A DNA stretch of 24,794 bases from a virus. Positions 1,405 through 23,937 of the stretch are shown here, piece after piece (the stretch's first letter is position 1; each line of letters opens with the position of its first letter). The translations under genes and the position numbers were made by a program. The notes below the pieces were generated by a model. That model was not told where the DNA came from and ran no database searches. It saw nothing but the letters and a program-made list of their open reading frames with translations. The DNA is taken from positions 1 to 24,794 of IMG/VR virus record IMGVR_UViG_3300021371_000098. The stretch is one strand, 5' to 3'.

Positions 1405-1522
1405 TTGACACAAGACACGGCCTATGGTAGCCGCCAGAGTTGGCACGAGTCTTGCATGGGTTGACATGGGCGGACTCATGTAGTAGCGAGCAGAGTTGGC
1501 ATGGGTTTTGCATGGGTTGACA
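1405..1522 (+). repeat. 56-bp tandem repeat, two full units plus the start of a third
   Basis: Units begin with TTGACA at 1405, 1461 and 1517, exactly 56 bp apart. The first two units match at 38 of 56 positions by my count, and the block from CAGAGTTGGCA to the next TTGACA (1435-1466 and 1491-1522) matches at 29 of 32. The third unit keeps only TTGACA and loose similarity. Each TTGACA is a perfect sigma70 -35 box; 17 bp downstream lie TAGCCG, TAGCGA and TGGACC, which are poor -10 boxes. The repeats may be early promoters, regulator sites or origin iterons. Confidence 0.8.
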
Positions 1523-1695
1523 AGTGTGTGAGCTTATGTTGGACCCTTTGGGCCTACCTTCTATTACACGCGCACATGCGACTAGCATACGTCAACCAGT
1601 GCGGTCAATAGTCTATTTGTGGTATTATTTACTATATACATCTGCAGTGGTTCCTGTATTATGGCTACATCTTCAATAAACAAAGGTAATCAATT

Positions 1696-1914
1696 ATGTA
1701 TAACTTATATGAAATTTACACTGTTAACCCTGAGACTGGTGAGGCTGGCTGGGACATTGAGTTCGTCATTGCGCTTGATCGTGAAGATGCCGCAACATTC
1801 CCATACTTTGATTGCGTTATCATGAAGGACGGCACATTCAGCGACTGTAAGCTATCAGCGGCTAACTCAGGGTACTCAATGACTGAAACAGTTCACAATA
1901 TGATTTATGGATAG
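1696..1914 (+). CDS. Small early protein of unknown function
   Basis: This 72-residue acidic protein begins MYNLYEIYTVNPETGEAGWD. It is the first gene of the plus-strand arm. The start is preceded by AAAGG at a suitable distance. The sequence alternates predicted strands with a short segment rich in Asp and Glu (ALDREDAATFPYFD), has no membrane segment and has two isolated Cys. I recognise no family. Its position as the first early gene suggests a role in host takeover, as for T7 early proteins, but this is only positional inference. The stop is 1 nt before the first copy of the 48-nt hairpin element. Confidence 0.6.
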   Translation: MYNLYEIYTVNPETGEAGWDIEFVIALDREDAATFPYFDCVIMKDGTFSDCKLSAANSGYSMTETVHNMIYG

Positions 1915-1915
1915 G

Positions 1916-1963
1916 GTTGACTAATCGCAGGGCATCCTCTAGGGTGTCCTTCAGTGAGTCAAC
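1916..1963 (+). promoter_or_regulatory. 48-nt hairpin/promoter-like element, copy 1
   Basis: The element starts with GTTGACT and ends with AGTCAAC, a perfect 7-bp inverted repeat. Inside it GGGCATCC (1930-1937) pairs with GGGTGTCC (1942-1949) around a TCTA loop, with two G-T pairs. Two 7-nt unpaired strands separate the stems. Read as DNA, TTGACT (1917-1922) is followed 17 bp later by TAGGGT, a weak promoter. A second copy is at 2344-2391. The next gene starts 32 nt after the element. Confidence 0.65.
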
Positions 1964-1994
1964 ACATACAGGAACATCAACTAAGGAAATGAAC

Positions 1995-2237
1995 ATGGAA
2001 AATATATTTACACGAGAAGAAGTAGCCCAATTCGGTGCTGTGGTATGGGATGACGTTCTAACCCAATGGAACCCGAAGCGCACTGATGTTTATACTCATG
2101 TTGTGGCGGTGATGAAAGCCGAAGGAGATAACACTTACAGGGCCGTGAAGCGACACGACAATAACCGCTTTGAACTTGTCAGCGGTCAACGTACATTGTG
2201 TGACGCTATCAACGTATTACAAAGCTGTTTTAAATAG
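1995..2237 (+). CDS. Small early protein of unknown function
   Basis: The protein has 80 residues and begins MENIFTREEVAQFGAVVWDD. I chose ATG 1995 because AAGGA (1983-1987) lies 7 nt upstream; ATG 1989 is two codons earlier, and a TTG start at 1917 would run through the hairpin element. The C-terminal third (YRAVKRHDNNRFELVSGQRT then DAINVLQ) loosely resembles that of the 2427 gene (VVQL, IRILANTSTR, DAIQAM), which also follows a copy of the hairpin, so the two may be distant paralogues. I recognise no family or catalytic residues, and no function can be assigned. Confidence 0.65.
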   Translation: MENIFTREEVAQFGAVVWDDVLTQWNPKRTDVYTHVVAVMKAEGDNTYRAVKRHDNNRFELVSGQRTLCDAINVLQSCFK

Positions 2238-2249
2238 GGAGACGGACAG

Positions 2250-2348
2250 ATGGAACTTGTAGCGATATTTTTTACGATCATTTGGGCGTTTAGCTTCGGG
2301 GCCTTCGTGGGTCACGAGTCAGGAAAAAACAGCAGAGACAGGAGTTGA
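2250..2348 (+). CDS. Tiny single-span membrane peptide
   Basis: This open frame codes for 32 residues: a hydrophobic stretch (LVAIFFTIIWAFSFGAFVG, residues 3-21) and then a short polar tail (HESGKNSRDRS). It starts 12 nt after the preceding stop with a GGGAGA ribosome-binding site at a good distance, and its stop codon lies inside the second hairpin element. The composition is what a single membrane-spanning peptide would show, with the charged tail probably in the cytoplasm. Small membrane peptides are common among phage early genes and often alter host functions, but no role can be read from the sequence. The main doubt is its small size. Confidence 0.5.
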   Translation: MELVAIFFTIIWAFSFGAFVGHESGKNSRDRS

Positions 2349-2391
2349 CTAATCGTCGGGCATTCGCTAGAGTGTCCAGCAGTGAGTTAAC
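2344..2391 (+). promoter_or_regulatory. 48-nt hairpin/promoter-like element, copy 2
   Basis: This copy has the same layout as the one at 1916: GTTGACT at the left and AGTTAAC at the right, with inner stem GGGCATTC (2358-2365) pairing with GAGTGTCC (2370-2377) around a GCTA loop. One inner C-G pair of copy 1 is T-A here, so the stem is kept while both bases change. TTGACT (2345-2350) is followed 17 bp later by TAGAGT. It overlaps the stop of the 32-residue gene and ends 35 nt before the next start. Confidence 0.65.
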
Positions 2392-2426
2392 ACACGTCAA
2401 CACACGAGCCACAGGAGGGCTTTGAC

Positions 2427-2666
2427 ATGAGCTACAGAGTAAACAACAAGCACATCGAATGCGCATTAGAATACCTTAACAGCCGCATAGGTAAACAGGA
2501 CGGTGACATTGGGTGTATTAGGACGTACAATCACAGCGTTGTGCAATTAGTAAACGAAAGCGGAGGCATTAGAATATTGGCTAACACTAGCACTAGGCGT
2601 GAGGCTTATGATGCAATACAGGCAATGACTAACTTCCACTACCACACACAAGAGGTGACAGCATGA
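2427..2666 (+). CDS. Small early protein of unknown function
   Basis: The protein has 79 residues. A full AGGAGG ribosome-binding site (2412-2417) precedes the ATG. The protein begins MSYRVNNKHIECALEYLNSR and ends with a His/Tyr-rich segment (NFHYHTQEVTA). Its middle and C-terminal pattern (VVQLVNESGGIRILANTSTR, then EAYDAIQAM) is a strand-strand-helix arrangement also hinted at in the 1995 gene. There are two Cys and no membrane segment. The stop overlaps the next start as ATGA, so translation is probably coupled. I recognise no family. Confidence 0.65.
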   Translation: MSYRVNNKHIECALEYLNSRIGKQDGDIGCIRTYNHSVVQLVNESGGIRILANTSTRREAYDAIQAMTNFHYHTQEVTA

Positions 2667-3943: not shown

Positions 3944-4218
3944 AACAACCAGAGAACAGCCACACGAAGCACTTTGGCAACGACGGACCCATTGGTAACG
4001 ACGCTGAGATCGTTGTGTACTACGAGGAACGTGGGCCAGCAGAGCCAGTCCTACGCATACCCTTTTGGTACTACAAGGACGAACTAGGGTTGTTTGAGAA
4101 CTTCGAGGCCTCAGTACACAGGACAGCCAAGGCACTCGCAGAGTCCTACACGTACTGGCCCGACGGGTACGTCCATGTGCAGACAATTATTAATAAGGAG
4201 TACGTGAATATAGTTTGA
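3940..4218 (+). CDS. Small protein of unknown function, 92 residues
   Basis: The product begins MKQPENSHTKHFGNDGPIGN and continues EIVVYYEERGPAEPVLRIPF, WYYKDELGLFENFEASVHRT, and a C-terminus rich in Tyr and Val. It is soluble and mixed alpha/beta. It is the last gene before the promoter at 4215, whose -35 box overlaps its stop codon. No family or catalytic site is recognised. Its place just before the replication operon may mark it as an early regulator, but the sequence gives no direct support for that. Confidence 0.62.
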   Translation: MKQPENSHTKHFGNDGPIGNDAEIVVYYEERGPAEPVLRIPFWYYKDELGLFENFEASVHRTAKALAESYTYWPDGYVHVQTIINKEYVNIV

Positions 4219-4243
4219 TTCGACAGCAAAAGTAGTGTATACT
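4215..4243 (+). promoter_or_regulatory. Sigma70-type promoter for the replication operon
   Basis: TTGATT (4215-4220), a 17-bp spacer and TATACT (4238-4243) form a good host-type promoter; the -10 box is the same hexamer used by the leftward promoter at 1174. The first gene downstream is SSB at 4303, with GGAG about 9 nt before its start. The -35 box overlaps the stop codon of the preceding gene. Confidence 0.7.
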
Positions 4244-19699: not shown

Positions 19700-23538
<3,839 letters not shown>

Positions 23539-23539
<1 letters not shown>

Positions 23540-23937
23540 TATTGCTCCCTCGATACGCCCTTAGTTTTTTCATAAGAACGCATTGCACCAAGACCAAGCA
23601 TACCCATAAGTACAGGCATCATAGTCTCAAGATCAATAAGCGGTATAGTTACTTCAATAGCCAATAACGCTAGTACAAAGTTAGTAAACGGTATAACCAT
23701 AAAGTTACCGGTCATGCCTAGCACACAGCACCAACCAACAGCAGGACGCCAGCCAGAGACAAACAAGGACTTGTGTGCTGCTTCTACCTTGTTAACTTCT
23801 ATCTGTGCTGTAGCAAGCTCCTGAGCGTGTATCTGAGCCATTGTAGCGACTTCGTGAGCCAGCCTTGCCTTCTGGTCCTTGTCTTGTATAAACTTGTCTA
23901 GAAGCCCTGTAACCGGCCCTATAAGCGCCTCTATCAT
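23539..23937 (-). CDS. Holin of the GTA-type three-membrane-segment family
   Basis: The protein has 132 residues. A polar helical N-terminus ([20 protein letters not shown]) with [19 protein letters not shown] is followed by the family signature [19 protein letters not shown] (about 61-79), two more hydrophobic segments ([20 protein letters not shown]) and the C-terminal [20 protein letters not shown]. This matches the holin family first named for gene transfer agent release. It would form lesions in the inner membrane so that the M15 endolysin can reach the wall. It overlaps the small membrane protein gene upstream and shares a base with the repeat-protein start. A second holin or antiholin may be the 61-residue neighbour. 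Confidence 0.85.

Follow-up and report, generated by a model that had tools for sequence, protein, structure and literature searches.

A conserved hairpin overlaid with a predicted promoter at early-gene junctions of uncultured phages

Introduction

Why would a phage early region carry the same 48-nt hairpin twice, each time shortly before a small gene? The question is raised by a 24,794-base IMG/VR virus record that was analysed over its whole length and is called the window here. Apart from these two copies, E1 and E2, the window has none; both lie in the early region, ahead of the replication genes. On the plus strand the window encodes a gp2.5-like single-strand binding protein, a primase-helicase, a DNA polymerase, a Cas4-type exonuclease and a ribonucleotide reductase. 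No match to it was found by megablast among cultured phages. Its primase is at most 47–48% identical to those of Roseobacter and Pelagibacter phages, which makes a marine origin likely. The element-bearing phages as a whole are probably an uncultured, podovirus-like marine group. Searched with PF00940 for a phage RNA polymerase, nine contigs gave no match, and neither did the controls.

Two further proteins of the window were noted. On the minus strand, a 132-aa protein (23539-23937) matches GTA_holin_3TM (PF11351, E 1.3e-20), and a 1279-aa protein (19700-23539) has long acidic/proline repeats (D1-D3) and a PARP-like repeat match, with no match in PHROG.

A sequence-only reading of the locus had suggested that the element could be an RNase III-type processing site, a regulator operator or a promoter. 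The features on which this question turns are the following.

1649-1695, plus strand: conserved early leader GGTTCCTGTANNATGGCTACATC, ahead of the accessory first gene
1696-1914, plus strand: accessory first early gene, 72 aa (MYNLYEI..), 5' of E1, with 1 nt from the end of its stop codon to E1
1916-1963, plus strand: element copy E1, an imperfect 22-position hairpin with an outer stem of 7 bp, a split internal loop, an inner stem and the loop TCTA
1917-1922 and 1940-1945, plus strand: E1 hexamers, -35 TTGACT and -10 TAGGGT
1995-2237, plus strand: small early gene, 80 aa (MENIFTR..), flanked by E1 and E2, no family match
2344-2391, plus strand: element copy E2, same family, a variant that differs from E1
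2345-2350 and 2368-2373, plus strand: E2 hexamers, -35 TTGACT and -10 TAGAGT
2392-2426, plus strand: leader 3' of E2, ACACGTCAACACACGAGCCACAGGAGGGCTTTGAC, whose ribosome-binding part ACACGAGCCACAGGAGG is common to unrelated genes in relatives
2427-2666, plus strand: small early gene, 79 aa (MSYRV..), 3' of E2, matching PHROG 15017 (unknown function)

Results

The hairpin is conserved and its pairs covary

Both copies stand where the earlier reading had placed them, and each has the outer arms GTTGACT/AGTYAAC, the inner stem, the 4-nt loop and the hexamers TTGACT-N17-TAGRGT that it described. The changes reported between the copies are real and keep pairing (C21-G28 to T21-A28, and G4-C45 to G4-T45). 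The start codons follow at 31 nt (ATG 1995) and 35 nt (ATG 2427), close to the 32-36 nt given before. The 7-nt strands assigned to the internal loop were too long, as the inner helix spans 11 bp (12-22 with 27-37) over the 29 sequence variants of what we call family A. Their RNAalifold consensus consists of an outer stem of 7 bp, a mismatch, 2 bp, a mismatch, 11 bp and the loop; the internal loop is hence two single mismatches around one A-U and one U.G pair. E1 and E2 are atypical, with one mismatch each in these extra pairs. Their minimum free energies are -23.4 and -21.1 kcal/mol (z of -4.6 and -3.4), and they score 74.1 and 70.3 bits, respectively, with a covariance model of the family.

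Across the 29-variant alignment pairing was kept in 98.3% of the cells, and seven of the 20 pairs presented compensatory changes on both sides. These include C18-G31 to G-C, U21-A28 to C-G, G1-C48 to C-G and G4-C45 to A-U, as well as pairs 13-36 and 14-35. Covariation scored 0.265, compared with 0.125 +/- 0.011 in shuffled alignments (reached by none of 500), and dropped to 0.08 or less once the pairing partners were slid. Regarding the strand, the gene-sense sequence folded better in every variant of family A (29/29) and of the two sister families described below (7/7 in B and 4/4 in C). Over the three families, wobble columns outnumbered A.C columns by 17 to 5 (p 0.017). Sense-strand folding and wobble pairs kept in one orientation point to an element that acts as RNA rather than as duplex DNA.

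Conservation goes beyond pairing. In family A, 24 columns are invariant; the loop bases TA and the internal-loop bases AAT and GTGAGT are the same in all 29 variants, while the remaining loop bases vary. After the hairpin there is no T-rich tail, which speaks against a terminator, and no terminator-like site was reported there. The Shine-Dalgarno sequence lies outside the hairpin, 12-20 nt away in family A, and its sequestration in the manner of T4 gene e is not supported for this family.

Family A occurs in 58 contexts, and unrelated hairpins take its place in relatives

An exact-motif scan of IMG/VR gave 35 contigs, and a looser one gave 74, some of them by chance. Motif scans and primase relatives together yielded the 29 variants of family A, in 58 distinct IMG/VR contexts that share descent and do not count as independent events. 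The covariance model found one copy per early region, and two in the window and in locus L005, and its hits did not trail off into weak members. Broken stems in relatives, or a lack of conservation elsewhere, had been named beforehand as outcomes that would speak against the element; the search came out in its favour on both counts, with the stems kept well beyond the window. Exact motif matches were absent from a collection of bacterial and archaeal genomes, and blastn of the element against cultured phages returned nothing beyond 24-nt matches in Erwinia phages, which are at chance level. In Rfam 15 no family reached its gathering threshold, and none appeared up to an E-value of 5 over 1380-2450.

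We also inspected the intergenic gaps of cultured phages (L178-L181). CRP-125, HTVC115P and HTVC142P contain intergenic hairpins and no clear family member. Roseobacter phage CRP-361 (L179, 1583-1656) has an RNase III-like two-turn hairpin, GGTTTGCATCGCGGGTCCATCGATATCGGTGGGCCTAGCCATGCAAATCC, after its first listed gene, with no promoter overlay visible near it. It is a cultured analogue, open to testing.

Related phages without family A have hairpins at comparable junctions that are unrelated to it in sequence and share its architecture:

Family B: CAGTTGATAAAGGGAAGGCCC..
Family C: CAGTAGACTCAAGTAAGCCC..

Upstream genes that resemble each other stand before A in L021 and before C in L150. When all loci were scanned by structure alone, the hits were A, B and C and, besides them, a few hairpins that were weak or coding. 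In the three families the internal loops are symmetric, with 1-4 extra pairs inside. A further intergenic hairpin, ..GGGCCTCGCTTATGCGGGGCTTT.., follows the MENITRSK gene in L056, L058, L059, L060, L064 and L069; this 'family D' is more terminator-like and was left out as a sister family.

Predicted promoter hexamers occupy the same register in three unrelated families

In A, B and C, the best sense-strand pair of -35 and -10 hexamers has a 17-bp spacing, with the -10 starting within 1 nt of the dyad:

Family A: TTGACT/TAGRGT
Family B: TTGATA/AATACT
Family C: TAGACT with TAGACT, TACGCT or TAAGCT

Shuffles that preserve pairing reached the hexamer score in 2 of 5000 cases for A, 107 for B and 98 for C, with a matrix and shuffles that assume an E. 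coli-like sigma-70. For weaker variants of A and C it was reached by 17 and by up to 315 of 5000. It was structure that led to B and C, which makes them independent tests of the promoter, each only near p 0.02. Among 339 control hairpins drawn from the same contigs, five (1.5%) scored 7.1 or more, and none of the 127 strong ones did. These comparisons support the promoter proposed in the earlier reading, as a prediction. The spacing falls in the 16-18 bp range of sigma-70 promoters and the -10 has A at position 2 and T at position 6; E1 and E2 match 8 and 9 of the 12 consensus bases. TAGRGT makes a weak -10, and the -35 is weakened in some variants (GTTAACT in L038 of family A, TTAATA in L075 of family B). 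A single-strand promoter of the N4 or Frpo kind was rejected on geometry, as the -10 starts in the loop.

Other promoter-like signals were noted in the window. A good sigma-70-type promoter, TTGATT-N17-TATACT, stands before the gp2.5-like SSB gene (4215-4243, plus strand). The early leader contains tandem sigma-54-type sites, TGGCAY-N5-TTGCW, at 1441-1456 and 1497-1512 (plus strand), two in the window when 0.05 are expected, a number reached by none of 100 shuffles. Among 47 related contexts, 39 have at least one such site, usually 2-4, in the 1.2 kb that precede the element, and none has any in the 1.2 kb downstream. This array is possibly a sigma-54 promoter array of the phage early region, or another repeated signal.

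The element marks junctions between shuffled small genes

The element comes after the first accessory gene or genes, which trail a conserved early leader. In all resolvable contexts the upstream stop codon ends between -5 and +6 nt from the element (four cases overlap), and the next start codon follows its end by 24-49 nt. Using simple BLAST clustering and short ORFs called by rule, we counted 19 upstream and 9 downstream gene families around the element, in 30 pairings, and seven of the upstream families have more than one downstream partner. The ACACGAGCCACAGGAGG leader 3' of the element is common to different downstream genes. L053, L056 and L076 are without the accessory first gene and also without the element, and in L076 and L096 the early leader is fused straight to the element's tail, GTCAACACACGAGCC. 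The chimeric elements of L007 and L014 have a 5' end of the G type and a 3' end that is otherwise restricted to C-type elements before the same gene, and look as recombinants would. In the two-copy loci (the window and L005) the copies flanking one gene are different variants, so no simple duplication explains them.

Discussion

A proposed junction cassette for the early operon

The reading we prefer, at about even odds (roughly 0.5), takes the element for a composite junction cassette in the early operon, in which a promoter is combined with a read-through hairpin probably cut by RNase III. As DNA, it would be a host-type promoter with its -35 in the outer 5' arm, a 17-bp spacer and a -10 starting at the dyad. 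From that position of the -10 it follows that its own transcript would start some 7 nt further, inside the 3' arm, and would lack the hairpin; as the earlier reading rightly noted, the roles of promoter and hairpin cannot both apply to the same transcript. RNA reading through from the main early promoters upstream would fold into an imperfect hairpin of two turns, interrupted in mid-stem by an internal loop. If the host RNase III cut there, the accessory first gene and the next gene would end up on separate mRNAs, with a 5' end left near the one given by the element's own promoter. Since element and ribosome-binding leader are alike at every junction, they could serve as a homology seam for exchange, gain and loss of early genes. 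We infer promoter activity, cleavage and recombination from the observed conservation, covariation, sense-strand preference, promoter geometry, position and gene shuffling. The fuller claim, a transcript-origin switch of 48 bp on which three unrelated families converged as a modular joint for early-gene swapping, is somewhat more tentative.

RNase III usually needs little sequence, and the invariance of 24 columns in family A counts against the composite cassette. The enzyme of the phage host may differ, given that the RNase III of S. meliloti cleaves R1.1 atypically and wants longer duplexes (PMC6121014).

One could argue that the element is purely a T7-type RNase III processing site and that its -35/-10 match arose by chance or is left over from an earlier state. 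This is the most plausible of the alternatives, if still an unlikely one: the architecture of T7 R0.5 and R4.7, the sense-strand folding and the early-gene junctions all suit it, and the GTTAACT..AGTTAAC variant weakens the -35 yet keeps the pair. It leaves a hexamer spacing and register common to three unrelated families, and a loop TA that is invariant with no pairing reason. Another protein, such as a phage regulator or an antitermination system of the HK022 put type, might instead read the hairpin on the read-through RNA beside the promoter. We hold this to be rather improbable. The invariance of AAT and GTGAGT in 29/29 variants exceeds the known needs of RNase III and speaks for such a reader, whereas B and C, unrelated in sequence and placed at comparable junctions, suggest that shape is what is recognised, and no common regulator gene was identified. 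Besides, HK022 put sites are two hairpins near a promoter.

Two further readings have still less in their favour. The hairpin could protect the 3' end of the upstream mRNA in the manner of REP elements, with or without the promoter, as suggested by a spacing that is tight and constant to the upstream stop codon and looser to the downstream start. Short spacing is expected anyway, as all genes here are tightly packed; the shared conserved leader is on the downstream side, and an internal loop would weaken a protector, so we regard this as improbable. Least credible is an element acting on DNA, with no RNA involved, as an operator, a recombination site or a cruciform. The 7-bp outer palindrome overlaps the predicted promoter, and the chimeric elements of L007 and L014 and the two-element loci suggest recombination there, but one-way wobble (17 against 5 columns) and sense-strand folding in every variant are not expected of a duplex site. 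From the three roles first suggested, the promoter thus finds support and the RNase III-type site good support, the latter as a candidate through its R0.5/R4.7-like fold, sense-strand folding and place at early-gene junctions, while the DNA operator is disfavoured by wobble pairs kept in one strand orientation.

If the composite cassette is right, it suggests a route by which new, often host-directed early genes are plugged into an operon without disturbing the expression of their neighbours. With the covariance model, metagenomes can be searched for such junctions and, along with them, for the accessory early genes, which are possible anti-defence genes.

Comparison with known systems

The statement that no described family is like this holds for Rfam, and needs correction in that both T7 RNase III junctions and T4 PeSLs come close to it in function. 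T7 RNase III sites (R0.3, R0.5, R1.1, R4.7 and others) are likewise hairpins of about 50-60 nt between early genes, with no terminator tail, an outer stem of 7-10 bp, a mid-stem internal loop, an inner stem of 9-11 bp and a small loop. We folded T7 at what we take to be the R-site positions, with promoter positions from the sequence record. R0.5 and R4.7 fold to an element-like form, R0.5 and family C both contain TAGACTCAAG, and the start of promoter phi3.8 falls in the predicted hairpin at R3.8. A simple scan around these positions found no single hairpin at R0.7, R1, R1.1, R1.3, R13 and R18.5 and only a weak one at R6.5; the comparison therefore rests on R0.3, R0.5, R3.8 and R4.7. Like the T7 type, the element lies between cotranscribed early genes as an imperfect two-turn hairpin that has its internal loop in mid-stem, and its structure is on the sense strand and is kept by compensatory changes. 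R1.1, a 60-nt RNA between T7 genes 1.0 and 1.1 that RNase III cuts in vivo, has a 4/5 internal loop (PMC6121014). That loop is asymmetric, whereas those of A, B and C are symmetric. Family A also differs from the T7 sites in that its internal loop is nearly paired and its sequence largely invariant. Its predicted promoter belongs to the host sigma-70 class and always has its -10 at the dyad, while T7 sites go mostly with phage-polymerase promoters. Unlike the T7 sites, the element forms a seam between modules of a diverse gene set.

PeSLs, or promoter early stem-loops, are reportedly the subject of work by Arbiol (2010) and Comeau (2014), said to be titled as promoter-terminator motifs of T4-like myoviruses. 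They are described as cassettes of a promoter and a stem-loop between small early genes of T4, tied to modular shuffling (PMC4503421). The element resembles them as a stem-loop with a predicted promoter at junctions where small early genes are shuffled. It differs from PeSLs, as described there, in that its predicted promoter and hairpin overlap, that it has no T tail and hence no terminator stem-loop, and that it belongs to podovirus-like phages.

In T4 gene e, a late promoter lies inside a translation-blocking hairpin that hides the ribosome-binding site. Like the element, it would start its own transcripts within the hairpin, which they lack, and form the hairpin by read-through; the difference is that the ribosome-binding site is hidden there, while the Shine-Dalgarno sequence of the element is outside.

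Because the terminator part of PeSLs is absent and RNase III cleavage is only predicted, we file the element under neither system. By analogy, it appears to work like both T7 RNase III junctions and T4 PeSLs, and it would extend the two ideas, joined in one element, to uncultured and probably marine phages.
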